DNA from: Seison nebaliae
Lineage: Eukaryota; Rotifera; Pararotatoria; Seisonacea; Seisonidae
NCBI GenBank assembly: GCA_023231475.1
Contig: JALJEE010002890.1
Coordinates: 1 to 50,298, forward strand
Reading direction: 5' to 3'
DNA length: 50,298 bases
This document shows, piece after piece, positions 8,269 through 43,457 of this stretch; within the stretch, counting starts at the first letter, position 1, and each line of letters opens with the position of its first letter. Below the pieces are notes generated by a model. The model was given only the letters and a program-made list of their open reading frames with translations. It did no database searches and was not told the DNA's origin. The position numbers and the translations under genes are program-made.

Positions 8269-10020
8269 CTAATTCAGTAATTTTTCATTTTCATCTTTCT
8301 CATCTTCGGTGGAGGAGAAGGTGGGAACTTGTTTTTGTTGGAATTTTGGTTTCTCTACAGGACTCAGTAGTGAGATAGACGAGTTCGGTTTCATTAAATA
8401 TAAATGACGACGATAACGATTTTTATGTGCATCTAAACTTAGTCGATCTTTTTTTTGTGGTTTCTGCTCAAATTTCTTAATTGAAGTGTTTCGGTTGCTT
8501 CGTAATTGGACGCTTGGTCCCAAAAGTGTATTCTCGTTATACAATTGATAATCGTTGGATATGGTACATAACGATGTACTTCTTGGAGGGATATTATTCG
8601 ATTCGACACTATTCCTATTCTGTTTGAGTGTGGAGGAGAAAATGTATTTTTTCATTCCAGGATATCGAGAGAAACAAATTAGAATGAAATCCTTCCTGAA
8701 AGTTTGTGAGAAGTAGAAATAGATGGGAAAGTTTACGGCCGATTTGACGCTCACTAATAAATCAGTAATTTCACGTACACCACGTATGAATCCATTAGAT
8801 GATGCATAATCAAAATGAAGCATTGTTAAAACCGTATCTGGTAACAAGCAGACTAATGCAATCACATTAATTAATATCAACATAGCTGTAATTCGATGAC
8901 GTTGTGTCATTTTCCTTCCAGGAACTCTGGCGCGATGAAGAACACGTATAATAATCAAAGTGAGAACGATCATTATAATACATGGTATGACCAGTTGAAC
9001 TAATCCACAAAATAGTTGATAAGTTTTTTGAAAGACAGGTGAAATAATATTGACTGCGACAATATCATAATTGCATTGTTGCAATTTCTCATCTGGTTTG
9101 TAACGACGTTTATAACGGAATGCTGATGGTAATCCAATAAGAATGCATGTTATCATTATGATGCTCGATGTGACTTTGGCCCTGAAGACTGTGCACAATT
9201 TCTTGGAGAGAACTAAAAGTGTTACTAGGAAACATCTGTCTAACGTAGCGGCAACTGTCATCCACGAGGAGAGCATCATTGAAATCAACATAAAATAATG
9301 AGATATTGGATAAAGTGTAACGAACATATTTTGACTCGTCTCTTTGTTATATTTGCCCGTGAAAATAATTAGAACATATAAGGAATCGTTGATCAGTTTA
9401 ATCAAATCCCATAAAGCGAGATATGTCAAGAAGACGTTAGTAGAATTATGATTGTTGGATAAGACGAATGTGAGAAATGTTAATAGATTTCCCACAATTC
9501 CGAATGCACAAACGATCGGATAAAAAATGCATGCCGTTATCAATTGGGAGATCTTGTAGAAATCATCACCATTCTTTAAAAAGTCTTCGATCGATTTGGT
9601 GGTAATAACGGTGCTAGTCATCGATGTTGTCGTATTGTTATCGGAATTGAAGAAGGATGTGGTTGCGGGAGTGGAAAGATGAAAAAATTTATCAATGTTA
9701 TCTTGAATCGAATAAATTGATGGGTCAAAAAAGTGTCGGGTTTGTAAAGAAAGAATTGGCTGTATAAGAAGAGTATCATAATCGTTCTTCAAATCTGGTA
9801 AGGAAGAACTAGTGGGATTGTAGTAAGAAGAATTCTTCGAATGATACAAATGTTGAGTGTTGTTTGAATTTTGATGATGATTAGTAAGATTGTTGTTTAG
9901 TTGGAAGGCATTCTTCTCGTTGTTCACATGAGAATAGAAAGTATTAGTCGAATTAGATGGATAGATCGTGCTGTTGATGAATGATTCACATTCATATTTT
10001 GTGAAGAAATTTTTATTCAT
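8269..10020 (-). CDS. Divergent rhodopsin-family GPCR (peptide-receptor-like orphan)
   Basis: A single coding exon encodes 583 residues. A long, Asn/Ser-rich, glycosylatable N-terminus (about 155 residues) precedes seven hydrophobic helices. Family landmarks are Asn178 in helix 1 (GNLL), Asp205 in helix 2 (LALWD), an altered DRY motif DRC at 261-263, CLLPD in helix 6 where CWxP is usual, and NFPIY at 430-434 in place of NPxxY. I see no cysteine at the start of helix 3 to pair with Cys316 in loop 2. The helix 7 style resembles the FMRFamide/myosuppressin-type receptors of invertebrates, but this is only a tentative placement. A strong donor at 10178 (GTAAGT) and an acceptor near 10038 suggest a 5' UTR intron just upstream of the ATG. 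Confidence 0.85.
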   Translation of the reverse strand: MNKNFFTKYECESFINSTIYPSNSTNTFYSHVNNEKNAFQLNNNLTNHHQNSNNTQHLYHSKNSSYYNPTSSSLPDLKNDYDTLLIQPILSLQTRHFFDPSIYSIQDNIDKFFHLSTPATTSFFNSDNNTTTSMTSTVITTKSIEDFLKNGDDFYKISQLITACIFYPIVCAFGIVGNLLTFLTFVLSNNHNSTNVFLTYLALWDLIKLINDSLYVLIIFTGKYNKETSQNMFVTLYPISHYFMLISMMLSSWMTVAATLDRCFLVTLLVLSKKLCTVFRAKVTSSIIMITCILIGLPSAFRYKRRYKPDEKLQQCNYDIVAVNIISPVFQKTYQLFCGLVQLVIPCIIMIVLTLIIIRVLHRARVPGRKMTQRHRITAMLILINVIALVCLLPDTVLTMLHFDYASSNGFIRGVREITDLLVSVKSAVNFPIYFYFSQTFRKDFILICFSRYPGMKKYIFSSTLKQNRNSVESNNIPPRSTSLCTISNDYQLYNENTLLGPSVQLRSNRNTSIKKFEQKPQKKDRLSLDAHKNRYRRHLYLMKPNSSISLLSPVEKPKFQQKQVPTFSSTEDEKDENEKLLN

Positions 10021-13000
10021 TTTTCGACTTCATCTACCTTGCGTGAAAGCGAACTCAATGAAATTGATTGTTAAATTTCTTTTTTTTCTTCTGTTGTGCA
10101 AACAATAGTTAGAGATTATTTATGTGCGAATAAAATAGAAATTGCATCAATCGATCAGCAATGAATGAGCGTACTTACAGGAAATAGAACGAAATAGAAA
10201 AATATGAGCGATAGTTTCTTTCTACTCATAATCATCATGATGATGAACATGAGAAATAATTTTCATTATATTCCATAGTCCATGGAGTCAAACGAGAAGA
10301 ATTGGTGGAAGCTCTAAAAAGAAAAAATCTGGCGTTTCTCCGGAAAGAACAGAACAGGCGCACTTTCAATTGATCTTCTCCACTAGACGACGTAGGGAAG
10401 AGCATGTCGACCCACGGACCAACAGACGAGGAAGAACTCCATAATTTAATTACTTAAACTTTTTTTCTCACTTGATTATTTGATGCAACTGTCCCTCCCT
10501 CCCATATATCTATATACTCTTCTAATAACATCATCCCCCTTATTCTATTTATTATCTAACTTTTGTTCTTGTTATTGTTTCATTTTTCCTTGCCATTTCT
10601 GATCATATCTTTCAATGATTCGTCTATAACCTCCTCATCATTACCATCACCATTGTGATGAGAATTATGATGATAGAAATAATAATAAAAGAAAGAAAGA
10701 AGGATAATAATAATCCTCATCATTAATAATAATAAAAATGAAAATAATGAACGGATGTTCTTGTTATTTTTACTTTTAAGTTTTTGTCCTCGATGAAGTC
10801 CATATCGATAAATTCCGACAATGAAATTTTCTTCCTAGTCTACTTGTCAATAATGGTAGTGACTTATTGATAGTTAGACTAAGAATGTTTATTGCATTAT
10901 TACTAACGATAATGTTTAGAATACAGTCAACTTTTAGGGAATGAGTATATCGATGATCAATCACCAGACTCTCTTTCTTTCATTGTCATTGTCAATCGTC
11001 GACGAAAGACTTTGACGATTGAATGAATGAATTGAGGAAACGATGCTTGAGGCATTTGTCATAATTTAAGAAGTAAAAATAACATCACAATGAGGAAGGA
11101 GCTATATATATATGATATACTAAAATTATATATATATGTGCAATCCCCGTTCCATTATTTTGACTGGTTAAGCACATTAGGATCCATGTGCTTGCATACT
11201 TGAGTAGATCGATGTGTAATATCCTGGAAATGGATGACACACGTCGACGTGTGAGATACGGGAAATAATTAATCTATAATATCGGATATGTATGTGGGTA
11301 TATGTCATCTCATCCAGTTCTCAGCCAGTGGATGACTTATTGGACTAGTCATAATCCATTTCTATTCTTATTCCATATTTCCTTCTATGCACATTGTAAA
11401 TTTTATCGCATTTCACCAATATTTATTAGAATATAAATAATTGAATAGGAAACAAATGAACGAACAAATAAGATATTCACATTCATTTCTTCTCATCTAT
11501 TGGATCGAATAATATTACGTAAATAGATTTACAAGCACGTAGATTAGTACTTCTATCATTATCCATCGTCCTTATTTCCATTAACGGCATTCCTAATCAA
11601 CATTACAATACGCTTTGTCGACAGTCGGCGCATGTCAATCTTCTGCATTTTCACACCAATAACTCGAATCCGAGTTCATTTGGAAGGAAGAAAAGATAGA
11701 TTATCGAAATATGATGACTTCACTTACTCGAACTGTCTTCAATTATCAGATTAGAAAAGTAGTCAAATAGTTATTCATCTCGTTAAGCTGCCAGTCTTCC
11801 TTCCTCCATCTCTATCTTTCTTTCTAATCAACATTATTATGACGCATATTATTATGATTTAAACGATGCAATTTATTTCGGTCTATATATCCTCGAATAA
11901 TCGGACGATTAAATAATCATAAGAATGGAAAAACATAGAGAAAAAGTTCCAGTGCATTACATTCCCACTCCACTCCTACACGACGACAATGAATCACTAT
12001 TCTTATTTCTAGTTACACCTTCTCCCAACTCCTCCCATACGTTTTGTTTGTTCTTCTGATGATGCATTGTGAATCAAAGCTGCCGCATCAAACATAATCG
12101 TCTACCAACTGTAAACTTACCATATATCTTGTAAGAATAATTATTGTTATCGTATCAAAAATTATCATAATCGTTGTCTTTCTTTTCCCCAGAGTACATG
12201 TACGGAGAAGAAACTGCATAGGCATAATACATTAACAGATGGACAGACTACCTGAAAAATGGAGATAATTGGAACATAACATTAAAGAGAGTGTATATAT
12301 AGATGGGGAAAGTATTCGTCTGACTATATTTTAAACAAACGAGAAAACCAAATTTTTCTCGGCCGTCCTTCACTTTGACCCGCATCCAACAACTAGTAGA
12401 AAGCATTTACTCGGGAAACTGACCTTTTCTAAGAAAAAGAATGTTATGCATCGAAATAATAAGAAATTGGTGAGAAAACGATAATAAAGAATGATAAGAT
12501 TTCACACATTTTCTTTTTATTAAAATTTCTGCATCAATCTATTTCAATTTATTCTCCTTCGTAAAAGAAACAAACGTCAATTATGCTTTGTGTCATTGTT
12601 GGCGATTTTATTATTCATAATTACTATCGTATCACTATCAGAATAATAAACAAATTACATTGGTGAAAAGGTAGCAATGCAATTTTGTGGAAAAATTTCC
12701 ATGTGAATGACAGATGCATTTCATCTCGATTAATTACGTAACTATCGTGATGATTATAAAATCAATTTATCTTATCAATTCACTGCCTCGCTATTTAATC
12801 ATTGAATAACATCTATCAACATCAATGACAATAACATCAGAACTGTTTATCCATCTTGAATTGATTTCGAATCTCATTAGTTCCCTGAACAATTTTTCTG
12901 TCATAAAATCCAGAATAGAAAACATTTATTGTTGTAGTGCAATCATCGTGATTATAGGAATTGGAAAAGAAGAAGATATTTCAATACGATAACGTAAGTG

Positions 13001-14007: not shown

Positions 14008-16747
14008 TTACAATTCATCATGTTGCTTCATTGTCTGTAATATATCTTCCACATAGTAATGAATATATTCGGCCGATAAAGAATTAATCTCTTCTCCTGA
14101 GTATGCCTGTGCTTTCTTGTCTTTTCGACCTTTATATAGCATGACAGTGGGATAAGCTCGGATGTTTGCTTTGCGACATATTACTGGAAAATTGTCACAA
14201 TTGATTTTTGCACACCGTACTCGACCCTTCAATTTCTAAAAATTTTTTTTTAAATAAAAAAAGTCAGATTATTAAAATTGATTTGGTGAGACTCTTATAA
14301 GCATGGATGACGATTGACATGCAGATATTAATAAAATTCTCTCTCAAATTAAATGAGAAGTGGATGACGAGGACGAATGTCGATATTCGGTTTCAATTAA
14401 TAACTTACTAACTCGTGCGATTTCTTCGAATTCTGGTGCAAATTGTTGGCAATGTCCGCACCATGGTGCAAAGAAATCCACTAACCAAACGTCGGTCGAC
14501 TTTAAAATTCTCTCATGAAAATCTAGACCGTCAATATATTCGGTTTCCGAAGGTAAATATTCAAAAATCCATGTCCGTAGATTGTGGAAATCTCGAAACC
14601 ATCCATTGTACACACTAGAATAAATAAAGAGAATTAATTGTAAGAGAGAAATTGAACTAACACATATTTACTTAATCCGACGTCATTCGAATTGTAGAGA
14701 CGAATGTTTGGATAATGATGAATAGATTGTCGTTGACATATTTGCGGGTGTTTCAAACAATCGACAGAAGCGAATTGTGCTTGACCTTTCATAGCCTAAG
14801 TAAAATAATATTATTATAAGACAACAACAAAATTTGTGAGAAGATGAAATAAGTTGAAATTGTAACTTTTGCCAATCGTCTCCAAACAGGAATGAGATCT
14901 TGACACGGTCGACAATTGGGATTGTAATAGTCGACAAGCCAAAGCTCATCCTTTCGTTCCTCTACGAGTTCTTTGAGTGATTGTTCGTTGAGTTTCACAA
15001 CGACTGGATTAAACATATCCTCGATGAAATCTAAAATATCCTGCTCATTCAATTGTCCGGAATAATGGGTCGTTTCACTGCCATTAAAGAACATGAGAGA
15101 AGGATATGATCGAATTGAATATTTGTTACATATTGCCGAATTGACAGTGCAGTCCACTGTGCCAAATTTGACTTGCTCACGATACAGCGATTTAATATTT
15201 TGAGCGGCTCGACGAAATTGAGGAATTAATTGCATACAAGGTGGACACCAGGGGGCGAAAAAATCTACGAACCAAATTGGATTTTCTTTCGTGATTAGTT
15301 TTCTCACTTCTGTGCTGATTGAGATACAAGGAGAATTAACATTATCTCTTGCGAAATTTACAATATCGTGCGCCATTTGCCTTCCGTAATGAAATTGAAA
15401 TTGATTCTCATCTTTTAACAAGAGGAACGACGGATATTTAGTAATACGAAATTCTTTGCACACCTCATACAAATGACGACAATCAATCGAACTGATTTGT
15501 AAACTATGCTCCTTGAGCAATGATGGAATCTTTCGAAATTCTAACGAATCTTCATCATTCGTTGTGAAGTAGAGAAGATGTGCTTTTTCTTTCTTTGTTT
15601 TAAGATTGATTCGAATGTCTTTATATTGTTCGATGGTTAAATCGTTAAGATTTGGTAGTAATTCTAAACATTTCTGAACGATCTCTTTATAGTCTAATGC
15701 AGTAAATGATAATGAATTAGTCAATTTTCCTTCTTTCTTCTCCACAAATCCCAAAATATTTTCATGCTGAAAATAATTCACTAAATTCTTCATTTGAAAT
15801 GTTTGACATAATTCTTCTTCCAAATGACAATTGACTGATGCCACATGAACAAATCCGTCAAGAGCTGACGCTATTTTCTTTAATGTGATATCTTCCAAAC
15901 AATCTTCGTCGTGCATACAACTAATGATAATCCATGGAAGATGATGTGGTCGGTTGATTGTTACAATTTTCTTTATCATATTCTTCCAACTTCCATTATG
16001 TAATTCATAGAATTTAGCCGTAACGAATGACATAACGAAATTAATCAGACTATTCGTATCAGTTTCACCTTTATAGAATTGTTTCGATGGATACATGATC
16101 AATGAGGGATACATTTCGATTCCTTCTTGATTACATAGTGGATTGTCATCCAGACAATTTACTGCACCTATTCTTACCACACCTTCGACGGCTGCTGCTA
16201 ATTCTCGCCAGAAGGGAGCCAGTTCATGACAATGCCCACAATGCGCTGAATAATAATTAATGAACCAGATCGTATCGCTATTCTTCACCGCTGCTTCGAA
16301 GTCTGCTCTCGTCAATGTCACAATATCTTCGTCGTCGTCATATATTCCAAATTTCGAATTATAGAAATCCCAAGTCTGGTAATTATTTCCACGATTGTGT
16401 GCGTCATCTTTGAGACCTTCCTTCCCGTACATGTCATATTTCTTTCGGAGTTCGTCGTCTTTCAAAATCTCATAAGCTTCGTTAATCTTTATGAATTTAT
16501 CGTGAGCTGCTTTATCTCCAGGATTCTTGTCGGGATGCAATTTCAATGCTAGTTTCTTGAATGATTTCCTTATATCTCTCGAAGTTGCACTACGTTCAAC
16601 TTTAAGTAAATTGTAAAAATCATCATCCTCCGACGATGTTTGTCCATTCCGGAAACAATCATGTGAGATAATGATACACGAAATAAACAAGAATATTATG
16701 AGACTTATTCGAGATTGAGATTCGATCATTGTCTTTAATATTTTCAT
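14008..16747 (-). CDS. DNAJC10: DnaJ homolog subfamily C member 10 / ERdj5, ER disulfide reductase
   Basis: Four exons (16747-14867, 14795-14662, 14614-14413, 14235-14008) join in phase to 814 residues; the known family is about 790. The order is signal peptide (10-28), J domain with HPD at 71-73, then thioredoxin domains with active sites CGHC (170-173), CPPC (501-504), CRPC (612-615) and CGHC (724-727). Two inactive thioredoxin-like repeats lie between the first and second. The protein ends in HDEL, an ER retention signal. In the known family the J domain recruits BiP and the CxxC sites reduce disulfides of misfolded proteins for ER-associated degradation; this copy keeps all needed parts. 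The exon 2/3 join uses a GTTAGT donor at 14661, chosen because it alone keeps phase. Introns are 71, 47 and 177 bp. Confidence 0.93.
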
Positions 16748-18440
16748 ATTTTTCACGACTATTCTCTACAGTCTACACAAGTTATTGTGATTTTTCCAAC
16801 TTCCTTATTCTCAAAGGTATTCCTCTTTTACGTACAGACTATGACTGAAATTCTGAAAGAATGAATGTATTCGTCTTTTTCTTTATTGTTCCTTGTCACG
16901 TTTGGAGTAACAGACGTTCCATCTCTTTATAAATTTCTGGTTCACAACGTCTCCATAGAACATCATATCGGTGTCAATCGCCATTATGCTACGTAAGCAC
17001 TAATTTACAGAAGGCGGAACTATCAATTTCATCTTTAATGATTTCCATCAAATTCTCTTCTTCTTTCAAAAAAAGCTTAAAAGAAATAAAAATATTATTA
17101 TTTAATTCATTTATCGCCTGAGGTATTTTTTTCTTTATTTCCTTTCTTTTTCGAAGATTCTTCTCTTTCCCAAACGATAATACACGTCATCTTTCCTCAA
17201 CTTTAATTTAACGCGGAAGTTTACTGAATAAAAATTTACTGAACTCTTGTGAAATTTTTGTCAAACTAATTTAAAAAAGTTTCCGAAATTCCCCTTCGTA
17301 TAACATCCTTCCTAATTGTACAAAGTCTTACTTCTACGTTATTTAAAGAATTAAATTTAAAAAATTTTTCTTGTGTTACAATATTCATTATGTGAAATGA
17401 CCGCGGAATTGGATAAGATTCGTCTGATTATTAATTAATTATAGGATAAAATTAAATTAATTACTTATATGATATTTTTGGATATATTTGGATAGTTTGA
17501 TTAACTTTGAATTTGGAGTGAAGTATGGGGATACGAAGAAAGAATACTTTCGACGAACGTACGGAACAGACTTCATTTTTAGTTTTTTTCAATGTTGATG
17601 CTTTAGACTCTAAAGTTTAGAGAAAGAAAATATTAATAATATTAATTTTTTTTAAATTTAGATCCGTTCAGTATTTTATCTTCATTTTCTAATTGTTTTT
17701 GACTAATTCAACATATTCTTCTTATCACACATATCTTGCTTGGTAAGACTTTCGTTTTCTAATCTGTTAATCCAATAAATTCGTTGCTCTTACAATTGAA
17801 AAACTTTTATTCAGTTATCTCTGCGATAATATCGTAATGAGGATGTTGTTGTTGTTGAAATATAATGTTTCGCTCATTACCTAATGTTAGCTCCTCGTTG
17901 TATTTTGTTGTTTTAAGTTCTGGACAAATATTTGTCGTTTTTCCGTCTTTATTAGAGTTCCTAGATTGAAATCTAGGATATAAATATATTTGTCTAAACC
18001 CAATTACTTATCTTATTAGATTTTTGAGGTTTACCTTCAAAGTCCGCAGAACTGAAAAATTATGCATAAGTTTCCATCGACATTTAATTAAATGCTTATT
18101 TTGATAGTTTAAGGATAATTCCTCAAACAATAAGGTTCCAATATATAGATAATATATTACAGATACCACTGAATATATGGAGAAAAGAAATTAAGACGGA
18201 ACGAAACAAAAAACGGAAAAAAATTGATCAAAAAATCTTTACATGTTCCTTCACAAAACTCGATCACGTTTCTTTCCGACAATTCCTCCACTGACTTAAT
18301 CACTGACAAGATACATTCTCCTTGGAATTTAAGTGAATGGAAGACTCCTTGGAAGACTCCGTGATGAATATTCGTTAAATCCAAATCTTCGATCTAAAAT
18401 CTTCATCCTGAATATTTATGTATTGAAGCATTATTATTAT
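16748..18440. other. Intergenic, ERdj5 promoter side
   Basis: AT-rich, with no supportable coding frame. The region right of 16748 should hold the ERdj5 promoter. The left flank of a LINE insertion (18.44-20.14 kb) bounds it. Confidence 0.5.
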
Positions 18441-20145
18441 TATTATTATTATTTATTGGTTAAAATTCCCGCGGGGTAAACTTGAAAAAAAAGAAAAAAA
18501 TTACTGTCATCCTCTGTGTCAATAAAAAGGCGTAATTGATCGAGAGAATCGTGGTTGATAGGTAGAGTTGAAGGGGAGTCGTACGTTGAGATGAAATTTT
18601 TATAATCGGTTAGAGAAATGTTTGGAGATAACCCATAGTATCTGACAGTGTATGTGAAAACGGAATGGGTGTAAAAAGGATGGATAACGGAAGGATGACT
18701 AGAGAGTGAGTCGGAATTGTTACATTTATCACGGAGTAAAAAAATACGACGACATAGAAGAATTGGAAGTGGTAGGATATTCACAGTGGCGAAAAAAGAA
18801 GTGAGCGGTTACATCTATGAAAACAGCGGATAATTCTCCTAATCAGCCGATTATAAGCTCGGTCCAAGGACAGAAAAGACCGATGAGAGCATAGAAAGAT
18901 AGTCTCCAAAGAATACAAAGGAAGCACTAGGCTCCTGAAAAGTGAAAGACGGATCTTTAACGGGACGAATTTGGATTTAGGAGAAAAGGAGAAAAAAGCC
19001 CTACAGAATTTGTTTCGGATACGATCGAGAGCGGATGAGGAAAAAGACCGCATATCGACAAGTGTGATCGATCATATCACCGTGAACAATACACCCGGTG
19101 GAATTACGGGAGAGATTAGCGAGAAATCTGAGGATGGGATATGGGACGAGTTGACGCACAAGGTAATCAAAAGCATAAGAAACGTTAACGGAATCGAATG
19201 CCTTTGTAGCATCAAGGAAGAGAATATGTAGGGATAGTTTCATTTCTTTGGCAATACTTATAACCGAACGGAGAATGAGAAGGAGAGGATAGGTGCCACG
19301 ACAAGACGATCGATAAGCGAATTGGTAGGATGACGAAAATAGTACGTTCCGATATCGGATCAAAATGAGGTTCTCGAATACTTTCAGTAGGAACGAAGAA
19401 ATGCAGATCGGTCTGTATGAATTTAACGAGGTTTGATCGATATTCGGTTTCTTCAGAATAGGAATAATTTTGAAGACGAGCGAGATAGAGGAGAACTGAT
19501 GATGGAAAAGAATCAGATTTACGGAACCAGTAAGGTCGGTTACGAGAGATGGAAGTAAGTGTTGCACCAATTTAATGCAAACGTTATCGACACCGTGAGC
19601 CTTAATACCTTCGAGAGCCTGGATAGATTCGAAAATTTCTTGAGAAGTGAAAAAATCGAAATGAACATTGACGATAGGGCAGACGTAGAGTATAATGGAG
19701 GTGCGATACATGAAAAAAAGAGCCGAAGTATTCCGCTAAGGAGTCAGCAGAAATAGAAGATGTCGATGAGTTGGAGAAGCGATTAGTTATTAATTTCAAA
19801 ATATTCGTAGGATGAGAAGAAAGACAAGCGTTACTGAGCCTGCCGTGAAAATGGTCCCTGACACACATTCTCACGGTTCTGCGAAACAACTTCCGAGATT
19901 CTAGATGATGTTCGCGGTTGAGAAAAGAAGGATTTTCGCGGAAGGTTTTCCAGCAACCGATGCTTAAGATGGGAAATAGAAGAAAAATTCGAAATAAGGG
20001 GACGAGAAAAGTGACGCATGAGAGGGAGTTTATAATAGTGCTTGCAGGTAATGTTACGTGGGGTGGTATTTGGCGAATACAAAGTCATGGAAGTGGGACA
20101 GGAAAAAAAAGCATTATCGTGCAAAAAATAAACTTTCTTTGATTT
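18425..20145 (-). mobile_element. 5'-truncated, internally deleted LINE with (TAA)n tail
   Basis: Minus-strand copy of the same LINE family as at the left window edge. The 5' part (20124-19602) covers the linker between endonuclease and reverse transcriptase; the endonuclease is absent. The 19711-19001 frame has the block SYRPICISSFLLKVFEN, FAYRSSCRGT and motif A as FLDATKAFDSV. The next frame (19053-18781) is already the C-terminal thumb region, so motifs B (RQG) and C (FADD) seem deleted. The last frame (18784-18449) ends ILTNK, and the stop codon is the first unit of the (TAA)n tail at about 18429-18452. Frame changes and missing catalytic residues show it is dead. Confidence 0.85.
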
Positions 20146-28300: not shown

Positions 28301-28664
28301 GAACACCGTCGATGGGACGAAATAATATCGATGAAAATATTCCAAAAAGGATCATCATCTATATGAACGTATTTGAATAACAATAATCATATAAAAAAGG
28401 TGGAATAAAAAAGAAAACATTTTAATGGAATATCATCAATCGCGGAACGTTGGACTGATGCATAATTACGAAAAATGAATATGTTGCATCTGAATTGCAG
28501 GTGGACAAATTTTTGAGAAATTGTGAATTCTTCATTTATTCTCATCAATCATCAATCGACCAAAAACTGCATTCTACCTACGAAGTGCTTGTGGATGTGA
28601 GAAATATTTCGATGTACATAAGTTATTCAATTGTCAATTCGATAGCACCCACTCCTCATAGGCG
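25331..28664. other. Intergenic with scattered stop-poor minus-strand frames
   Basis: Minus-strand frames of 60-100 codons occur at 25848-26048 (hydrophobic start, polar tail), 26266-26490 (preceded by an acceptor-like AAG), 27165-27262 (preceded by TTTTCAG) and 27610-28032 (interrupted by one TGA and one TAA). They could not be joined into a gene model by consistent splice phase and match no family I know. They may be remnants of the neighbouring retroelement or of a lost gene. The right part should contain the promoter of the GPCR at 28665. Confidence 0.35.
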
Positions 28665-31268
28665 ATGAGTGTTACTCTTAAAACGATTAATGATATACAT
28701 AGTCTCCAAACAGACAAATCCTTTCCTTTCATCCGGCAATTCAACTTGTCCCACAATCAAAAATACGATGAAGATGTTTCGGCCACATATAACTGGTCAG
28801 CTTTCCCATCTTCTCACAATACGTCGATATCCTCTGAAGATCATGAACGTCAACGGAATATTGCAATTTCTGCAAACTTCGATCAAATTTGCTCGATTAT
28901 TGTACCACTCATCTTTTCTTTGATAACATTAATAGGAGCTATAGGAAATTTCCTAGTCATCTATATCATCCTCATTAATCGCTCTATGAGATATACGACG
29001 ACGAACATCCTAATTTTAAATTTGGCATTTGCTGATATGTTGTTCATTCTTTTTTGTGTTCCTTGGACAGCATATGACCTGGCAACAGACGTTTGGCTCT
29101 TTGGAGACATGTGGTGCAAGATTTCATCTTATTCTACATATCTTACTGCCTTTCTCAGTGTCTATCTATTGGTGATCATGTCATTTGATAGATATTTGGC
29201 TGTAGTCCATCCGGTTAAGAGTGTCCGATTAAGAAATGCTAGAAATGCAATTATTGTATGCTTCTGGTTATGGATTGTATTGATCTTGGCTTGCATGCCA
29301 CTAATTTTCGTCCATCAACAATACACTTATAGTTATGATAACGTGACGAAAACCAGATGTTTGACAGTCTATCAGAAGATTAATGGAACAGACATCGACA
29401 GCCTATGTATTATGTACATGTCAATCTTTGGTAGTAGTTATGTTCTACCACTCATACTGATCTTGTCATTATATTCGATGATATTACAACGATTAAGAAA
29501 TGCGACGACAAATATGTCGTCAAATCGTGCGAAGAATGAGGTGGATGTGATTGAACCAAAACAAACCACTTCCGATAAAATCTCGTCGTTCTGTTCAAAT
29601 TGCCTCATGGGAAGTTGTTGTACTTGTTGTTGTTGTAAAATTTGTTGTCCATTTGGATGTTGTTGGAGACTTCTCAATAGATCATCCCTTATCAGATATC
29701 GACATACGAGGAGTACAGCTTATTCAATGGCGGCGAATAATGGTGAGAATCGTTTAGTTCAAAATGCTATCTATTCTAAATCATCAAGAGAAACCATTCA
29801 AAACATTTCCAGTGTATCACTAAGGCAACAAGAATGTTTATCTCCCAAAAGGAAGTTCGACAAGATGAATCTATTTCGTCGTACGAAACCAAACGGTGAT
29901 AAGAAAAGTATTTCGAAGGAAATGCAAAAGAGAAAACGGAAAGTCACACGAATGGTTACGATTGTCGTTGCAGTTTTCGCCATCTGCTGGGCACCATACC
30001 ATTTGTATAATGTTCTCAAATATTTGTTCAAGATTAACCCAAAAGCAATCGAACTACAAATTGCTTTCCGTACTTTCGCGATCCTTTCCCAAATAATGGC
30101 ATATATGAATTCATGTATCAATCCATTCCTTTATAATTGTTTATCAGAGAATTTCCGAATGAGTTTTATCAAACTATTGGGTTGTGCACCTTTGACAAGA
30201 TTAATTCTCAATAATAAATCAAAAAAGAAAATAGGAAGAAATAAAAAGACAACAAAGAACTTTATAGAGTTAAACCAAAAACCGAGAAAAATTCCGACGG
30301 ACACAGAATCGAAAATTGAACAACCACTTATCAGCAATCGAACAGAGAAAGAAAAATCGATAACTAATTCATTTAATCAGTTATCTAATAATTGTAATGA
30401 AGAGAAATCTTTTCAAAAAGTACCCATTGGTGACGACCATAAATCATTGAGAACCAACACTCCAATTGTCACATTAAAACCGAATGGAAAAGTTCCAGAA
30501 ACGAAAAGATTCTTATGTAGTTCAGAGACAGTTCATCAATTGACTAAAGTAAAATCGCTTTATGATAAACCAACGTCCTCTCTTCAATTTCCCCTCAAAT
30601 ATAACGACGTCTCATCTAATTCCACAAACAATTCGATCAAACAGTGTTCGCTTCCACCAGATCGACGATATGAAGATTTTGGTTTCCTCACTGGAATTCC
30701 TTTAACATATTCCACATTCAGTTTTAAAGATTATAAAAATAAAGATTTATTGATATTCAACAACAAACTTTCGATGGGAAATAATTTAGTGAAAAAGAAA
30801 ATTTATTGTTCTTCTCCATGTATGTCTTTTTACAATCGAGTTTTCTGGAGGAGAAAGTGTGAAAAGATGATGACGAAAAAGTTGAGATATGCGAAAACTG
30901 ATCGAATGTCTTATCATAGTGATTCAGTTGTAAGTTCCATAACAATCGACACATCGGTCAATTACCCAATAACCAATTCATCTCTATGCAAATCTTTAAT
31001 TGAGAAGAGTCACAAACAACCAAATAAAAAACGTACTCGAAAACCTATTTCCATCAACTTATGCAATGAATCGAATAAGACTTTTTTAATCTGCTCAAAA
31101 TTACCCAAATCATCTATAGCCACTATTGATATTCAAAAGAAAGTTAATAAGTTTGGGCAAATAGTTGAACTTCGTTCAATTGGAACCTGCACATTATTGA
31201 AAGCTTTGATTACCACTAAATCAATTAAACCTAATGATTGTACAATTGCTCATCGTCAAACACCCTAA
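28665..31268 (+). CDS. AstA-R: Allatostatin-A/galanin-type neuropeptide receptor with extended loops
   Basis: Single-exon, 867 residues. The N-terminus has N-glycosylation sites (NLS 27, NWS 43, NTS 52). Landmarks are Asn95 in helix 1, NLAFADMLFILFCVPWTAYD in helix 2, Cys151 paired with Cys232, DRY at 175-177, CWAP at 441-444 and NPFLY at 486-490. The helix 2-3 sequence and MAYMNSCINPFLY are typical of insect allatostatin-A and vertebrate galanin receptors, so a Gq/Gi-coupled plasma membrane peptide receptor is expected. Unusual features are an intracellular loop 3 of about 150 residues holding 12 cysteines within residues 310-333, and a C-terminal tail of about 375 residues. The usual family length is 350-450. 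A close relative such as a kisspeptin-like receptor is the main alternative. Confidence 0.85.
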   Translation: MSVTLKTINDIHSLQTDKSFPFIRQFNLSHNQKYDEDVSATYNWSAFPSSHNTSISSEDHERQRNIAISANFDQICSIIVPLIFSLITLIGAIGNFLVIYIILINRSMRYTTTNILILNLAFADMLFILFCVPWTAYDLATDVWLFGDMWCKISSYSTYLTAFLSVYLLVIMSFDRYLAVVHPVKSVRLRNARNAIIVCFWLWIVLILACMPLIFVHQQYTYSYDNVTKTRCLTVYQKINGTDIDSLCIMYMSIFGSSYVLPLILILSLYSMILQRLRNATTNMSSNRAKNEVDVIEPKQTTSDKISSFCSNCLMGSCCTCCCCKICCPFGCCWRLLNRSSLIRYRHTRSTAYSMAANNGENRLVQNAIYSKSSRETIQNISSVSLRQQECLSPKRKFDKMNLFRRTKPNGDKKSISKEMQKRKRKVTRMVTIVVAVFAICWAPYHLYNVLKYLFKINPKAIELQIAFRTFAILSQIMAYMNSCINPFLYNCLSENFRMSFIKLLGCAPLTRLILNNKSKKKIGRNKKTTKNFIELNQKPRKIPTDTESKIEQPLISNRTEKEKSITNSFNQLSNNCNEEKSFQKVPIGDDHKSLRTNTPIVTLKPNGKVPETKRFLCSSETVHQLTKVKSLYDKPTSSLQFPLKYNDVSSNSTNNSIKQCSLPPDRRYEDFGFLTGIPLTYSTFSFKDYKNKDLLIFNNKLSMGNNLVKKKIYCSSPCMSFYNRVFWRRKCEKMMTKKLRYAKTDRMSYHSDSVVSSITIDTSVNYPITNSSLCKSLIEKSHKQPNKKRTRKPISINLCNESNKTFLICSKLPKSSIATIDIQKKVNKFGQIVELRSIGTCTLLKALITTKSIKPNDCTIAHRQTP

Positions 31269-34030: not shown

Positions 34031-34942
34031 ATGTTTGTTAGTGTCATCGGTTGCGGTTGTTTGGGGATTGAAATAACAACGACGTTGTTATATTATGGAT
34101 ATCATATCAGAATATTCGATAATAACGAAGATGATTTGAATAAAGCACATTCTCGAATTATAGCAAAAAAAAATCGTTTAATAAAAGACGAAAAACTTAA
34201 CCGGAATATTTTTGATTATGGAACAGTCTCATTTTTTTCTTCTTTAAGTTCTGCCTTGAAAAATGTCACAATCGTCCTCGAATGTATTACGGAAAATTTA
34301 GAATTAAAAAGGAAATTATTCGCAGAGATTTGTAACGAGACGACTGAAGATGTAATATTAACAACTAATTCGATGTTCATCCATCCGAGAGTTATTGCAA
34401 ATGAGAACAAAGAATTGATGAAACGTTTATTTGGAATGCGATTTCTCTATCCCGTTTTCTACAGTGATGAAGTACAATTTGTGATGAGTGAAGAGAATGA
34501 TTTGAGGAAGTTCAAGAAATTGGAACAATTCGTAGGAAGTCTCAACAAATTAATTACACTTCGTTCCAGCGTACCGAAAGTGATGACTCCAGATGAGCGC
34601 GATGCGAAAAAAATTCAATGGAAAAAAGATAATTCAAATATCGTCGGAAATTTTTCAACTGACATCAATAAGAGTAATTTAACTTTCTCCAGTAACTTCT
34701 CTCAAGAATTGGAAAAAATCATCGGAGTCGATTTACAATCGTCCAAAAAGTCAATGCAATCAAATGAAATGGATGCGTCTCAATGTGTCATCTGTATGGA
34801 TAATAAGAGAGACACACTCATCGAACCATGCCACCACTTTGCAATATGTTCATTTTGTGCGGAGAATCTTCGTGCTCGACATGATCATTGTCCAATTTGT
34901 CGTGGAACAGTTAAAGCTTTAGTGAAAGTATTTTATTCTTAA
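34031..34942 (+). CDS. 3-hydroxyacyl-CoA dehydrogenase-type NAD-binding domain fused to a RING finger
   Basis: Single exon, 303 residues. Residues 2-180 follow the N-terminal domain of 3-hydroxyacyl-CoA dehydrogenase/lambda-crystallin proteins. VIGCGCLG gives the GxGxxG motif at 7-12, acidic Asp30 ends strand 2, LECITENLELKRKLFAEI is the conserved second half, and MRFLYPV stands where the family has HFFNP. The catalytic His and Asn are therefore replaced by Arg and Tyr. The C-terminal dimerisation/catalytic domain is absent. A Ser/Asn/Lys-rich linker (about 185-250) leads to a complete C3HC4 RING: Cys252, 255, 267, His269, Cys273, 276, 287, 290. The RING resembles the terminal RINGs of MUL1 or Neuralized-type E3 ligases. 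Inference: a ubiquitin ligase with a nucleotide-binding pseudo-enzyme module. No intron separates the halves, so a mis-join of two genes is unlikely. Confidence 0.85.
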   Translation: MFVSVIGCGCLGIEITTTLLYYGYHIRIFDNNEDDLNKAHSRIIAKKNRLIKDEKLNRNIFDYGTVSFFSSLSSALKNVTIVLECITENLELKRKLFAEICNETTEDVILTTNSMFIHPRVIANENKELMKRLFGMRFLYPVFYSDEVQFVMSEENDLRKFKKLEQFVGSLNKLITLRSSVPKVMTPDERDAKKIQWKKDNSNIVGNFSTDINKSNLTFSSNFSQELEKIIGVDLQSSKKSMQSNEMDASQCVICMDNKRDTLIEPCHHFAICSFCAENLRARHDHCPICRGTVKALVKVFYS

Positions 34943-36238: not shown

Positions 36239-39187
36239 TTAACTTTTATCTTTCTTCAATTTCAGTTTTTTTTCTTTGTTATCATAAGTATTTTTGGGAT
36301 AATTATAATGTTCAGTGATAGGATTTGGAGGAATATAAGGCAAATTTGGTCCATTTCGATAATGTTCTCGATGTAATTTATTAGCGAATTTTGGATAGAT
36401 AGGTATCTTCTCTTTCTCTTTATCGTCATAATTAAATATCATTCTATTCAATTTAACGCGTTGGAAATGACGATAATCTTCATCCGTCATATTTGGCTTC
36501 TCTTTCACCGTCGTTATGGCAACATTCCTCACATCGTTTATTGTAATAACATTCATTGTTGGTTGATAATTTTTAGCCGAAGTTATAATGGCTGATCGAT
36601 GTTTCATATGAGTTTCCAACGGTCTTTCTGTTATCGGTGTAGTTGGTAATGAAATATTTTCAGTTATTGTTGTTGTAATTGGTCTTTTCTTTATTGGTAC
36701 TGTCGTATCCAATATAGTCAACGGATGACCATTAATTCCATCACTTAATCTTTTATTATCAAAAATATTATTCTGATTGTTGTTGTTGTTGTTTGATTGA
36801 TAGTTACTTACAAACATTTTCTTCTCGTTCGAATAAGTTAAACGATTTCGTGGTCGATGTTTACCATCGATCTGCAATGACGATATATCACTCAATTGTT
36901 GTTTTTTGCGATTGGAAAAAAAATTGGGGACATTCATCGATTTTCGAGAGTTTCCGTCTTTTCTCCTTAAAAGATTTCTCGATTTGATAGTATCACTTAG
37001 TTCTTGTGATTTACCTGAACTAATAACGGAGAATAAAGGTAATTTAGGTGTCACAAAATTAATATTTTTCGATCGATTCGCTTTTCTTATAATATCGGAA
37101 TAAATACTCGACACCTTCTTACCCGAAGTTCCAGTTGAATCTCTTTTTTGTCTAATTTCCGTTTTATTATTTCGTTCCTGATGGTTCGTTTCCAAAATAG
37201 GTTGTTGCTGTTGTTGCCTCTGTTCGATTTTGTTTCTCAATATTCGATGATGATGATTCGGGTTATCATTATTGTTCTTAATATAATGATGATTAAAATT
37301 TATAGATTTTCTTTCATCATTTTCTTTCATTTCCATCACCGATGATTCTTGAGAATTGGCATTCGAGTAAATAATATTATTCTTCCTTATCGCCGTTGTA
37401 ACAATTGGAGTCGATTTACTATTTGTTGCCATAGTAGTTGGATGGATTATCGTTGTAATTTTCGATGCAGCGGTAGGTATTACTGATGATTTAGAAACAT
37501 AATCCGATGATGTTACAGATGTCGATATCGGATGATTAACATTATTATTTTGAAAAATTGTGGTTGTTATTGGTGTTGGTTTGGTTGTTGTTGTGGGAGG
37601 AGAAGGAGGAGGAGGAGGAGGTTGAGGGATAGAAGATTGTTGCAGTTTATTCAAATTGAAATGATTCCGACGAAATGTTTTCATTCGACTGGTCGTCGTA
37701 TGTGGAAAATTCATGGAAATTTTAGGTAAATTGCTTCTCACATTAAATTTATCTTTATTGTTGTTGTTGCTATTGTTCATTGAAGATTTTGGTGGAGACG
37801 TGTACGTCAAATCCTTCATGTTGATATCATAATGTTTGAATGTTTTCGGCTCCATTGCATGACCAGCTTGTCGGATCGAATGAGAACAATAATGATTTTT
37901 ATGATTATCCTCCGTATTCTGATTTAATTGTGTATTGATTAAACGATCAATATTAGTTAAAGTTGATGCGTTCGTTGATGTCATTGTAGTTGGATGTGTA
38001 GTGGAGGAGATTGAGGAAGGCCAATTGACGGTGGAGTTCTCTTTAGACTTATTCAAATTAATCATTTTCATCTCTTCCTGTATATCGTTAATCTTATTCA
38101 AATCACCTTGTATCTTTTTCAATTCATAATTATTCGATCTCATTCTTCTTCTTCCTTCATCATCTTCCAAAATATTTTTTATAAACAAATCTTGGTCATC
38201 GACATAGTTTAATGAATTATTAATTCCATCCTTCCTCAAATGACCTTTCTTCAATAATATTCTTTTATTTTCAATAATATTTTTATCGATATTATTCTTA
38301 TTCGTCAGATGTCTAGATGGAGGCACATAATACAAAGTATTCATTGACATATATTTATAGAGCGGTTGTGAATTATTATGATAAGTATTCGTATTATAAT
38401 AATTATCATCCACCGATCTCAATTTGTTATCAGGCGTCTCATTGACATGTGATAAGGTACCAGGATATCTATCGTTCTCTATTTGATTCATAAGATAACA
38501 TGATTGTGCTCGTTTTCTTAAATTACTCCGGTTAAATCGACCGCTATTAGGAAATCGTTTCATTTTCACTTTCCCATTATCATCGTTTATTAAATTTGAT
38601 TTCTTTAATTGGATTGTTTGATATCCATTCGACGATAAAGGTGATGACGTTGTTGTTGTTGTAGGGGTCGTATCAGTTGTTGATGAGACTTCGATTAATG
38701 GATCAATAAATTTTCCTTCCAACACTTCATTCTCGTCACCATCGTTCAGAAAATGTTTTCGATGTCCTCGACGAAAGATAATTGAATAAGGTGTCGATTG
38801 TAATTTTGACGAGTCGTTATGTTGTGAATTATTCGAACTGATAAAAGAATTGTCACTGCGTTTACGTTGATAAATCGTTCGAATAGGTGATCGCATTGGT
38901 CGATAAGAATTTCCTAGTTTTCTAGTTGATGCAATCTTTTTAGAATGAGATTGTTTAGATGGATATCTTTTCGAATAGACTTTTTCCAGTTTGTTTCTAT
39001 TAATATTTCTATATAAATTATTATTATTGTTGTTCCTATTTGGGTTGTTGCTCGTATCGTGATTCGTGTAAATGATTAATTGGGGCTCATTCAACTTATT
39101 AAAATGTGAGAAATTTTTATGATGTTCAAATGCAGAATAAGTTGAATAATTGTGACGTCGTTGTTCTGGTTGGGGAAGATACGCCAT
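36239..39187 (-). CDS. Large intrinsically disordered, Asn/Ser/Thr/Arg-rich protein
   Basis: One uninterrupted exon of 982 codons from ATG at 39187. Composition is low-complexity: Asn runs, Thr runs, a Pro run (PPPPPPSPP near residue 520), a Gln run, and many basic clusters. No signal peptide, membrane helix or globular domain is visible. Less simple blocks occur at both ends, MAYLPQPEQRRHNYSTYSAF at the start and a Tyr/Pro-rich segment (GPNLPYIPPNPITEHYNYPK) before a Lys-rich terminus. These could be conserved interaction motifs. A frame this long without a stop in AT-rich DNA cannot be chance. Family and function are unknown; a cytoskeletal, RNA-binding or scaffold role is possible but unsupported. 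Confidence 0.75.
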   Translation of the reverse strand: MAYLPQPEQRRHNYSTYSAFEHHKNFSHFNKLNEPQLIIYTNHDTSNNPNRNNNNNNLYRNINRNKLEKVYSKRYPSKQSHSKKIASTRKLGNSYRPMRSPIRTIYQRKRSDNSFISSNNSQHNDSSKLQSTPYSIIFRRGHRKHFLNDGDENEVLEGKFIDPLIEVSSTTDTTPTTTTTSSPLSSNGYQTIQLKKSNLINDDNGKVKMKRFPNSGRFNRSNLRKRAQSCYLMNQIENDRYPGTLSHVNETPDNKLRSVDDNYYNTNTYHNNSQPLYKYMSMNTLYYVPPSRHLTNKNNIDKNIIENKRILLKKGHLRKDGINNSLNYVDDQDLFIKNILEDDEGRRRMRSNNYELKKIQGDLNKINDIQEEMKMINLNKSKENSTVNWPSSISSTTHPTTMTSTNASTLTNIDRLINTQLNQNTEDNHKNHYCSHSIRQAGHAMEPKTFKHYDINMKDLTYTSPPKSSMNNSNNNNKDKFNVRSNLPKISMNFPHTTTSRMKTFRRNHFNLNKLQQSSIPQPPPPPPSPPTTTTKPTPITTTIFQNNNVNHPISTSVTSSDYVSKSSVIPTAASKITTIIHPTTMATNSKSTPIVTTAIRKNNIIYSNANSQESSVMEMKENDERKSINFNHHYIKNNNDNPNHHHRILRNKIEQRQQQQQPILETNHQERNNKTEIRQKRDSTGTSGKKVSSIYSDIIRKANRSKNINFVTPKLPLFSVISSGKSQELSDTIKSRNLLRRKDGNSRKSMNVPNFFSNRKKQQLSDISSLQIDGKHRPRNRLTYSNEKKMFVSNYQSNNNNNNQNNIFDNKRLSDGINGHPLTILDTTVPIKKRPITTTITENISLPTTPITERPLETHMKHRSAIITSAKNYQPTMNVITINDVRNVAITTVKEKPNMTDEDYRHFQRVKLNRMIFNYDDKEKEKIPIYPKFANKLHREHYRNGPNLPYIPPNPITEHYNYPKNTYDNKEKKLKLKKDKS

Positions 39188-41097
39188 CGTTGTAGTCAGA
39201 AATTGGGAAGAAATGCGTTAGCGAATAACTATAACGATCACCTTGAATTAAAAATATTCATCATTATCATTAGTAGAAAACTAATTTTATATCGAATAAT
39301 CAATTATATATTTCTACAAAATTCTTAAGATTATTACTTCTATTCCTCCAACTCATATAAATATCAACCATCAATTTCATTCATCAACTTCTTCTTAAGA
39401 GAACTGATATCACTTTCAAATTCATCATAAAAGAAAAATTAATAATTTCATCATAATATTTCAACATTCTCTTTCCTTTCCCACTTTCACTATTCTATTG
39501 TTGTCGATTTATAATTCGACTTAACTAAAATTATTTTCCAACTTTATTACTAAATAATTAGAAATCGATTAAACTATATTGAAATTACAATAGGACATAA
39601 ATATAGATGTCTTTAATTGAACTGACTTTGAAAGATAGAACATGAAGAGCATTGAATGCTCTTGAGAACAATTAATTGGAATTAAACGAACACGATAACT
39701 ACTTCCCAATCTCAATCGATCAATCTTATCCAATTTGCTATTGTTCTTGTTCAATCTTGTTCAATTAGGATTCAATTCAAATAATCAAATCTTCATTTGA
39801 GATAGACAATTCGTTTTTTGAAATAGTTGAGAAAGTGTTCTTTGAATTGAATATAAATGAAATGTGAACCTGCAACAAAGTAAATTAGTCTATTCAAATA
39901 ATCGAAAAACAATGTCAAATTGAATGAACATTCGTTAAAGTAATTTCAGTTGTCAAAATGAAGAATTGTATTCAGAGAAATAAATTGTAAAGAATACGAT
40001 TTGAAATGAAAGATTTGAGTCTTTCAAGAAAGTTAACCTTCTTTAATTGGGAAACTTCCGTATGTAATACATGAAGATTTTTCTTATTCTTCTTCTTCGA
40101 TCAATTTAATTTGATATACATTATCTGTTGGATGAAGTGACATTGAAGAAAGTTTTTTCACGTTCGCCAATTACAGACAAGTGATGAATCAACACATCGA
40201 GTATGTATATTAAATTTCTTTCAATTTGATCAGTTGAAATTATGCAAATAATAGATTTTCGAAAATTGACTTTTTGTTTGAAACGGATTTGAATGTTCAA
40301 TATTTTAAAAACTATCTTGACTCCTAATCGACAGTTCACTCGAAAGTTATATCAATCTGTCAAGTGTGATAGTTGAATCTCCTTCTAATTGAATAATATA
40401 GTAGCCCGATAGATAAAGGTGAAGAAAATAAGATTAGAAAACTCAATAAAGGATTTGATTAAGATCGTTAACTTAGAAATGAGACTAGTTTTCGTGAATG
40501 GGTCTTTATGACATACGAAGGAAATGAAAAATTTCACAAAAAAAATTACCGGAAAATATTGTTTAAGTTAAATTTAGAGGAAACTGAATGGAGATAAGAA
40601 GAAAAGAGGTAGGGCGAATACGATTCAATATAATTTTAATAAATCAATAAGAGATTATAGAAGTTGTTGATGTGCAATGTATAGATGAATGGTTTGAATG
40701 AATTGAACTGATTTGAGAATAACAAGAATCATAATAATGATATTGGATAATATGATAATTAATTTACATAAAATGATAAATATGAAAGAAAGGGGAAATG
40801 ATAATTTGTTTTAGATGAAAACTTGAAAAGAAAATACAGAAGAAACAAAGAATGATGACCATTAAAATTATATGTCTATTCTTCCATTAAATATAATACA
40901 TATTTCATGTTGATTATAATTGCTTTCCTTTCACTATTCTTCTTGTTGTTGTTGCTGCTTTTTTTTCGTCGCTCTTCTTTATCATTTTTATCCATTGACC
41001 CTCCTCTTATTCATGTTCTTATTAGTCGTAGTAGTAATAGATAGTGATGGTCCGAGGTCGGAATTGTGGTGTCAGTTCCAAATTATCAGTGAAATTG
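39188..41097. other. Intergenic
   Basis: AT-rich spacer between the disordered-protein gene and the 3' end of the Kv-beta gene. It should hold the promoter of the former (right of 39188) and the 3' UTR of the latter (left of 41098). No gene is supported; frames up to about 70 codons here look random. Confidence 0.5.
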
Positions 41098-43457
41098 CTA
41101 CACATCATTCAATGACTTCATGCCTCCTTTAGCAGGTAACAAAGTGGTAGACGATGAGGATGATGATGATGTTGTGGAAGAGGATGTTATTGGGACAAAT
41201 GATTTCATAATTGTCGTCGATTGTGCGATTGGAGAGGCAGTGTAATTGGAGAGTGTTGGATGAGTGTTGATTATTGTCCCATCACTAGCTGTGTTTATGA
41301 GTGAATCGTCAGATTCGACAGCATGCATCCGAACAGCAATCTTATTACGACTATTGAAACTCTCATACGGTTTCAATACGGCACATGAGCCAATGAACAT
41401 CGACTTAGTTGGTGGTGGTGCACTACTTTGTGGTATAGATGACGACGACGATAATGATGTATGTGAACTGGTGATGTGAGTTGATGGGGGATTGATTAGG
41501 TTGGAGGAGCCACCTGAAGAACGTGATAATGTCGAAGGAATATTAGTTATTGGACTAATTGGATTTGATGAGATATTGTTAGATATTCCGGTTGTCATTA
41601 TTGTAGTAGGAACTGATGGTTCATGTGTCGATGGAAAGGAAGATAAAGATAAATCATAATTCTGTTGAAATGGATGTTGATATTGATGAAACAAATGATT
41701 ATGTTGTTGTTGTCTTTGTTGTTCGAGAAATTGTTGTTGTTGATGTTCGGTTAAGAGTGAAGGTAATGGTTGTTGATTCACTAATATTTCTCCTCCATCA
41801 TTTACAAATGATTTCGTCATTAATTTATCGTTATTCCTTAAAATAGATTGATCAACAACTTCGACGGACGAATAACTCTTCTCGCCTAAAGCTTTTGAGG
41901 TAGTCGTTTGTTTCTTTGGTGATGTTGTCGATGTTGTTTCACTATTTGAGATCTTAAGTAGAGGTAATCGTTTTGGTTCTTGTCCATTGCCAGATAACGT
42001 TCGCGGTGATACCGACATGGATTGATGTATACTACTAGTTGATGCGATAGTTGTTACACATAAAGTGGAGCGTGCCATTGTATTCCGATTGAGTTGTCCT
42101 AAAGGAATCATCGATTGATCATTTGGCATCGTTGGCATTAATGCCGAAGATCGAGGTGAATTCTGTTTAGATTGAAATGACAATGTGGGTGCTATATTTA
42201 ATGTTTGAGCATTGGGCAACAAATTTCCAACGTCCGTTCCATCCAATATAGTTTCAATTTCTTGTTTGATACCTGTCGTCAATCGATTGACTATACGGAA
42301 GGCTTGCAGATTCTCATATAGTTGTTCGGCTGACGAAACACCCAACAGTGTACAATGAACCATTTCATTTTGGAGACACCAAGCTACAAGAAATATTTTT
42401 ATTAATTTCTCATTAATTATATTAAAAATGAAACCGATCGATAACTGAGAGAGTGTACACGATAATTTATCAGCAATCAATTGTAACTTACTCAATTTCG
42501 CTTGTTGTCGTTGTCCTTCTTCACTTAACAACTTCTCTTTCAACCATACACATCCTTTCAACGACGCACGGGAAAATAATGGAATACCATCTCGATATTT
42601 GCCTGTACAGATACCGGAGGCCAACGGACTCCAAGTAATGAGACCAATTCCTGAAAAGTTTTCTTTTAATGAATTTAATTATTTATTTTAATTGTTAAAC
42701 CAATTTTCGCTGTAATCTCAGGCAGAATATATTCGACTTTCTCTCGTCGAAATAAATTATATTCCACCTGCTCACAAATCGGAGCAATCAGATTGAACGT
42801 TCTTGCTACTGTATACGCTTCCATAATCTCGTTCGGTGACCATCTTGATGTGGCCCAATAGAGTGCCCAATTCTGGTTGATACAATGGGTAAATGCACGT
42901 ACTATCTCTTCCATCGGTGTATGAGAATCCAACTTATTTGCAAAGACGATATCAACATAATCTGATAATGAATTTATCAAAAAATAATCATAAACAATAT
43001 AAAGAAACCTAATTGGAGACGTTCGAGTGAACCACGCAATCCTTCAATAATATGTTTTCTGGAAAGTCCTTTTTCCGTTTCGGCTCTAAAGAAAATTTAA
43101 ATTTAAAAAATTTTAATTAAATAAAATCGAAACTTTCCACCCCAAAAGATTTTCGTAGTGACTATATAAGTTGATCTCTTCCACATTTTCTTTTTAAGAA
43201 TTTTCCCAAGAGCAATTTCTGCTTTTCCATTTGCATAAACTTCAGCTGTATCAAAAACATTGATGCCACTATCATAAGCTACAGTGACGATCTCTTCCGC
43301 CATCTCATCTGATATTTGTGCACCAAACGTCACCCAAGTACCCAAGCCTAACTGAGAAACCGGAAGACCACATCGACCCAGATGACTGAATGGAAAAGAG
43401 AGAATGGAAATTAATCGAATTAAAATGAAACCTATATTGCATTAATGTAGTCATCAT
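41098..43457 (-). CDS. Hk: Voltage-gated K+ channel beta subunit (aldo-keto reductase; Hyperkinetic/KCNAB)
   Basis: Six exons (43457-43432, 43385-43134, 43085-43009, 42961-42701, 42650-42435, 42383-41098) join in phase to 705 residues. The core matches Kv-beta throughout: [67 protein letters not shown] and [14 protein letters not shown]. Catalytic aldo-keto reductase residues Asp54, Tyr59, Lys87 and Asn127 are all kept. They are offset by exactly 31 from those of mammalian Kv-beta2 (85, 90, 118, 158). The subunit binds NADPH, docks on the Kv channel T1 domain and modulates gating. Unusually, about 375 Ser/Thr/Gln/Pro-rich residues follow the core. The short N-terminus is the shortest possible start; an upstream alternative first exon may exist. 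Confidence 0.92.

Follow-up and report, generated by a model that had tools for sequence, protein, structure and literature searches.

One uninterrupted reading frame of 303 codons in the genome of the rotifer Seison nebaliae joins an NAD-binding domain of the 3-hydroxyacyl-CoA dehydrogenase (HADH) type to a complete C3HC4 RING. The frame lies in the window that was analysed, a stretch of 50,298 nucleotides. The preferred reading of the product, whose probability is put at about 0.4, is that of a RING E3 ligase with a catalytically dead, likely NAD(H)-binding pseudo-dehydrogenase module in front of it, the ubiquitination being regulated by the cofactor. The gene and its parts are the following.

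34031..34942, + strand: whole gene, pseudo-HADH N domain and RING (single-exon frame, 303 aa)
34037..34549, + strand: 3HCDH_N domain, NAD-binding, Rossmann-type, residues 3-173 (Pfam)
34049..34066, + strand: glycine motif GCGCLG, residues 7-12, in which G22, G24 and G27 of the human enzyme are kept (alignment to HADHs)
34373..34375, + strand: M115, replacing Ser137 of human HADH (alignment)
34439..34453, + strand: RFLYP, residues 137-141, with R137 in place of the catalytic His158 and Y140 in place of Asn161 (alignment)
34475..34477, + strand: Q149, replacing Glu170, the partner of the catalytic His (alignment)
34550..34774, + strand: linker, residues 174-248, with no recognised domain; the model is of low confidence after about residue 182
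34775..34915, + strand: C3HC4 RING, residues 249-295 (Pfam E 2.8e-14; MGRN1 RING E 4.4e-12)
34916..34939, + strand: C-terminal tail ALVKVFYS, which aligns with the extreme C-terminus of the cIAP1 and cIAP2 RING chains (..TVRTFLS)

Reading frame and gene structure

The frame is open from the ATG at 34031 to the TAA at 34940-34942, and another in-frame TAA lies immediately 5' of the ATG. With the base composition of the ORF itself, the probability that 303 codons stay open is 1.4e-11; for the 75-codon linker by itself it is 0.002. The first-pass annotation had described a single frame of 303 codons uniting the two halves and had proposed a search with the 3HCDH_N and RING profiles. This description holds, as both domains are matched above their curated Pfam cut-offs in the one frame (84.5 bits against 22 for 3HCDH_N and 53.1 bits against 27 for zf-C3HC4_3).

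The fusion could in principle be the result of an assembly error or of an unseen intron that makes two genes appear as one, and it is known from one assembly. This explanation is very unlikely, however, because no stop codon occurs in the linker or closes the first half, and a simple scan of the gene revealed no believable in-frame intron. The scan returned one weak candidate, spanning codons 85-226, the removal of which would delete half of the dehydrogenase domain. A frame of 790 residues elsewhere in the genome, containing both 3HCDH_N and 3HCDH and read as the alpha-subunit of beta-oxidation, is likewise uninterrupted, and a single-exon gene is therefore not odd in this genome.

Neither AATAAA nor ATTAAA is present within 218 bases downstream of the gene. 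The next gene on the same (+) strand appears to start at 35055, 112 bases past the stop codon, and neither hexamer is found between the two.

Elsewhere in the window, a single-exon frame at 28662-31268 (+ strand) encodes a rhodopsin-type receptor of 868 aa (7tm_1 E 1.4e-58). It contains a dense cluster of cysteines (SNCLMGSCCTCCCCKICCPFGCCW), likely located in the third inner loop, which is unusual. A second rhodopsin-type receptor frame is found at 8269-10029 (- strand; 7tm_1 E 4.3e-19). The frame at 14789-16765 (- strand) encodes a DnaJ domain and, after it, several thioredoxin domains, an arrangement that resembles the ER reductase DNAJC10/ERdj5. Two partial reverse-transcriptase frames (RVT_1) at 184-615 and 19001-19735, both on the - strand, are likely retroelement remains. 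An aldo-keto reductase extends across two adjoining frames at 41098-43043 (- strand), the longer of which continues at its C-terminus for about 400 further residues, with abundant Ser, Thr and Gln. A 992-codon frame rich in Asn and Thr, at 36239-39217 (- strand), has no Pfam match at E<=1.

The dehydrogenase half

Residues 3-173 match the 3HCDH_N family with an E value of 1.1e-23. The likeness to HADH extends to about residue 180, as judged from residues 3-179, which align with a profile of 37 HADHs, and from the structural match, which covers residues 1-181. Most of residues 1-180 are modelled by AlphaFold with high confidence. The model superimposes onto solved members of the fold with deviations in the range of 1.6-1.9 Å: 1.6 Å for FadB2 and CRYL1, and 1.8 Å for human HADH (1f0y). 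The first modelled strand is formed by residues 2-6, and the frame starts one residue before it. A mitochondrial targeting peptide would thus have no space, and the module is probably cytosolic.

The second dehydrogenase domain, which had been noted as missing, is indeed absent. The C-terminal (dimerisation) domain of 3HCDH, PF00725, is not among the 14 Pfam families matched at E<=1, and the HADH profile stops at residue 179. None of the NCBIfam dehydrogenase and HADH models (25 families listed) reaches its cut-off, the best scoring 69.2 bits against 312.

The equivalence of residues to those of human HADH was taken from a pairwise alignment to PDB entry 1il0. Three motifs quoted in the first-pass annotation, GCGCLG, ENLELKRKLF (residues 88-97) and RFLYP, are all found in the protein. 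The alteration of the catalytic HxFNP segment to RFLYP is confirmed as well: HADHs have HFFNP or HFMNP at this position, and the equivalents of both His158 and Asn161 are replaced. All seven NAD-contact positions are kept, namely G22 (G7), G24 (G9), G27 (G12), D45 (D30), E110 (E88), K115 (K93) and N135 (N113), the residues of the fusion protein being given in brackets. None of the four active-site positions is kept: Ser137 has become M115, His158 R137, Asn161 Y140 and Glu170 Q149. The list of the seven contacts and the role of Asn161 in HADH are taken here as assumptions; E110 has partial backing as an NAD contact, being named in the title of an NAD-containing PDB entry.

Within residues 1-182, 50 positions are at least 90% conserved among the 37 aligned HADHs, and the fusion protein keeps 24 of them, the other 26 being changed. 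If changes were assigned at random, the joint chance of retaining 7/7 NAD positions and 0/4 active-site positions would be 4.2e-4. This figure is indicative only, as it presumes that all positions are equally changeable and as the position lists were picked on the basis of prior knowledge of HADH biochemistry. Three of the changes (A8>C, M11>L and G14>E) affect the glycine motif or its immediate neighbourhood; they could weaken the binding of NAD and argue against unchanged binding.

In HADH, the proton is accepted by His158, which Glu170 holds in place, according to the relevant passage of PMC10988713. Both Ser137 and His158 are directed towards the nicotinamide, and FadB2 Ser122, the counterpart of Ser137, is described as indispensable for catalysis (both from passages of PMC6333283). 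The catalytic His-Glu pair and the Ser137 by which an HADH enzyme is recognised correspond to R137, Q149 and M115 in the fusion protein. Judged by profile and modelled fold, the protein is to be classed as a 3HCDH_N protein and not as an HADH enzyme. The Rossmann fold and the NAD positions would also be expected if the dehydrogenase were active despite an unusual active site and the RING only controlled its turnover. However, with the equivalents of Ser137, His158, Asn161 and Glu170 all replaced and the second domain absent, this is the least credible of the explanations considered.

In a tree of 23 rows, the end branch leading to the dehydrogenase half has a length of 10 changes per column, and 12 of the 19 inner branches are open. 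The tree places this half neither with an animal nor with a bacterial origin.

The RING half and the linker

The zf-C3HC4_3 match covers residues 249-295. The zinc ligands, assigned by alignment to solved RINGs, are C252, C255, C267, H269, C273, C276, C287 and C290, in the order and spacing of the family. The full C3HC4 RING of the first-pass annotation is thus complete both by profile and by its eight ligands. R291 directly follows the last RING cysteine, at the position typical of the linchpin arginine. On sequence grounds, the fusion protein is a RING protein and a predicted ubiquitin ligase.

Among solved RINGs, that of MGRN1 is the closest in sequence, followed by those of cIAP1 (E 7.1e-10) and cIAP2 (1.9e-9). 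The last residue of the fusion protein aligns with the last residue of the cIAP1 and cIAP2 chains, FYS corresponding to FLS. In dimeric RINGs such as those of MDMX, RNF4 and the IAPs, the partner contributes an aromatic residue located at the donor ubiquitin, as stated in a passage of PMC8897509. The structural model of the RING is of low confidence, with a mean pLDDT of 41.6 when residues 174-303 are modelled alone (3 alignment rows) and 29-54 per block in the full model.

Of the 16 zf-C3HC4_3 places found in the genome, the RING of the fusion gene has the top score. It is also the best match to the human MGRN1 segment (5.4e-15), the next place, on contig C631, scoring 2.4e-4, or 2.7e-6 when the query is an MGRN1-like database protein. 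No separate RING equally close to MGRN1 was found in the genome, although one might be concealed by introns or by gaps in the assembly.

Two origins were considered for the linker. The first, a remnant of the lost C-terminal domain of HADH, is unsupported: residues 174-250 gave no reportable score with the HADH profile, whereas 483 of 500 of their shuffles did, with up to 9.1 bits. In tblastn searches, four Sulfitobacter plasmid records reach residue 252 with 22% identity, and a Rhizobium record reaches residue 234; these extensions into the linker are treated as alignment run-on. The second, descent of the linker together with the RING from MGRN1, was also rejected. The likeness of the RING is clear, but that of the pre-RING helix is within shuffle noise, 769/5000 and 1577/5000 shuffles being as good.

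Distribution and relatives

The searches of the organism's own genome, which proceed exon by exon and score the best candidates only, found one copy of the fusion gene. The one further 3HCDH_N place found is that of the alpha-subunit, which also contains the only 3HCDH C-domain located. With a bacterial HADH-type query, one more place was detected, with a weak score (E 0.0046). Profiles of Blo-t-5, Chitin_bind_4 and Col_cuticle_N gave no match; as no control gave one either, they carry no weight for or against the mite implied by the first-pass annotation.

A search of the protein database with the full-length protein returned no relative with both halves at E<=0.01 among 1057 candidates. The RING end alone gave 2 matches at E<=1 among 72 candidates, neither of them with a dehydrogenase Pfam family. 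A profile built with four plasmid HADHs produced 7828 matches at E<=1e-5 among the 8000 best candidates scored. The 120 of these that were listed all have 3HCDH_N, and no RING family occurs among them; the best-scoring of the 120 (P0052) is 34% identical over 144 columns. Pattern matches were found in viral contigs (17) and in prokaryote contigs (36), and no relative with both halves is among them. One phage record matches residues 1-142 weakly, and each of 134 plasmid records has an identity of <60% (134/134). The contig collections searched comprise prokaryotes, viruses and plasmids, and the absence of relatives there says little about animal orthologues.

None of the papers listed by searches of the open-access (PubMed Central) literature describes a 3HCDH_N-RING fusion. 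The words 'dehydrogenase', 'Rossmann' and '3HCDH' have 0 occurrences in the main texts of two surveys of E3 or RING proteins (PMC3166285 and PMC12741051). Within the collections and papers covered, the joining of 3HCDH_N to a RING appears as a domain combination not previously seen in RING ligases.

The lack of such relatives, the very long branch and the lack of a canonical poly(A) hexamer close to the gene would all be expected of a fusion that is recent or degenerating, has no settled function and has remained intact by chance in one genome. This is unlikely, however. All 303 codons are open, and the complete retention of the RING zinc ligands and the NAD positions is not what neutral decay would be expected to produce. 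Furthermore, animal genomes are barely sampled, so that the lack of relatives means little.

Proposed function

Under the preferred reading of a cofactor-regulated ligase, the RING would be active as a ligase and might pair with itself through its tail, by analogy with the IAP and MDM2 RINGs, and it would recruit a loaded E2. The dead dehydrogenase module would bind NAD(H), and the bound cofactor would alter the shape of the module or its binding of substrates, so that ubiquitination would follow the redox state. The doubt rises along this series: from an active ligase, through self-pairing by the tail, NAD(H) rather than NADP(H) as the ligand and no binding of acyl-CoA, to the cofactor setting the activity or the choice of substrate. 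The weakest link is regulation of the ligase by NAD, as opposed to a role of the cofactor only in holding a substrate-binding module in shape. The extreme divergence, with 10 changes per column and 26/50 conserved positions changed, counts against this best explanation.

In Rossmann folds, an acidic residue after strand 2 predicts NAD(H) over NADP(H), and NAD(H) is predicted here because the acidic D30 occupies that place. The first-pass annotation had suggested ligand binding without catalysis. As a sequence pattern this fits, the NAD positions being kept and those of the active site lost; the binding itself is a prediction. Its further suggestion that the module senses acyl-CoA was not sustained. 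Binding of acyl-CoA is not expected because the C-terminal domain that closes over the ligand is gone and the equivalents of Ser137 and Asn161 are replaced, and NAD(H) appears the likelier ligand.

The main rival is that the dehydrogenase fold provides a docking surface only. It would be a plain substrate-recruiting or scaffold domain that has lost both its chemistry and its control by a ligand, and that binds a partner protein for tagging by the RING. Many RING ligases use borrowed folds as substrate receptors, and the changes at 26 of the 50 HADH-conserved positions and the missing second domain are consistent with such a role. The selective retention of all seven NAD-contact positions argues against it, and it is considered a serious possibility, short of an even chance. 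The cofactor-regulated ligase can also be given a more specific form, which is doubtful: a soluble, self-contained redox-sensing ligase, in which a burnt-out fatty-acid dehydrogenase would act as an NAD(H) sensor wired to a dimerising RING, the state of the cofactor picking the proteins for destruction.

Comparison with known systems

The dehydrogenase half shares its NAD-binding fold and NAD-contact residues with HADH (human 1f0y; C. elegans F54C8.1, 4j0e) and with bacterial 3-hydroxybutyryl-CoA dehydrogenases. Unlike HADH, the fusion protein has its catalytic residues replaced, lacks the C-terminal domain and carries a RING. If it functions as proposed, it would exemplify the reuse of a metabolic enzyme as a regulatory domain; if the gene is the private, fast-evolving fusion of one lineage, the interest is smaller.

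Among the RING ligases, MGRN1 and RNF157 are the family to which the closest solved RING belongs. In MGRN1 the RING is preceded by an engager domain (residues 79-260), for which the fusion protein offers no space, as 3HCDH_N fills residues 3-173 and only 75 residues remain. In agreement with this, an MGRN1-like database protein of 354 residues aligns to the fusion gene only over its residues 269-350. MGRN1 binds membrane adapters, as reported in a section of PMC12752501. The RINGs of the IAPs (cIAP1 and cIAP2) and of MDM2 resemble that of the fusion protein in the C-terminal tail, which ends at the same residue and has the same aromatic character. In contrast to the IAP family, the fusion protein has no BIR among its 14 Pfam families at E<=1, and the body of its RING is nearer to MGRN1.

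The ligase MARCHF6 of the ER membrane responds to NADPH, which it binds at its MarA motif, according to part of a commentary (PMC9583509). It is a parallel in the manner of working only, a nicotinamide cofactor setting the activity of a ligase, and is not a relative. MARCHF6 is not known to have a dehydrogenase fold. To our knowledge, few ligases besides MARCHF6 read a nicotinamide cofactor directly, and a probably soluble chain of 303 residues that combines a likely NAD sensor with a RING would lend itself to simple tests of how metabolism sets protein turnover.
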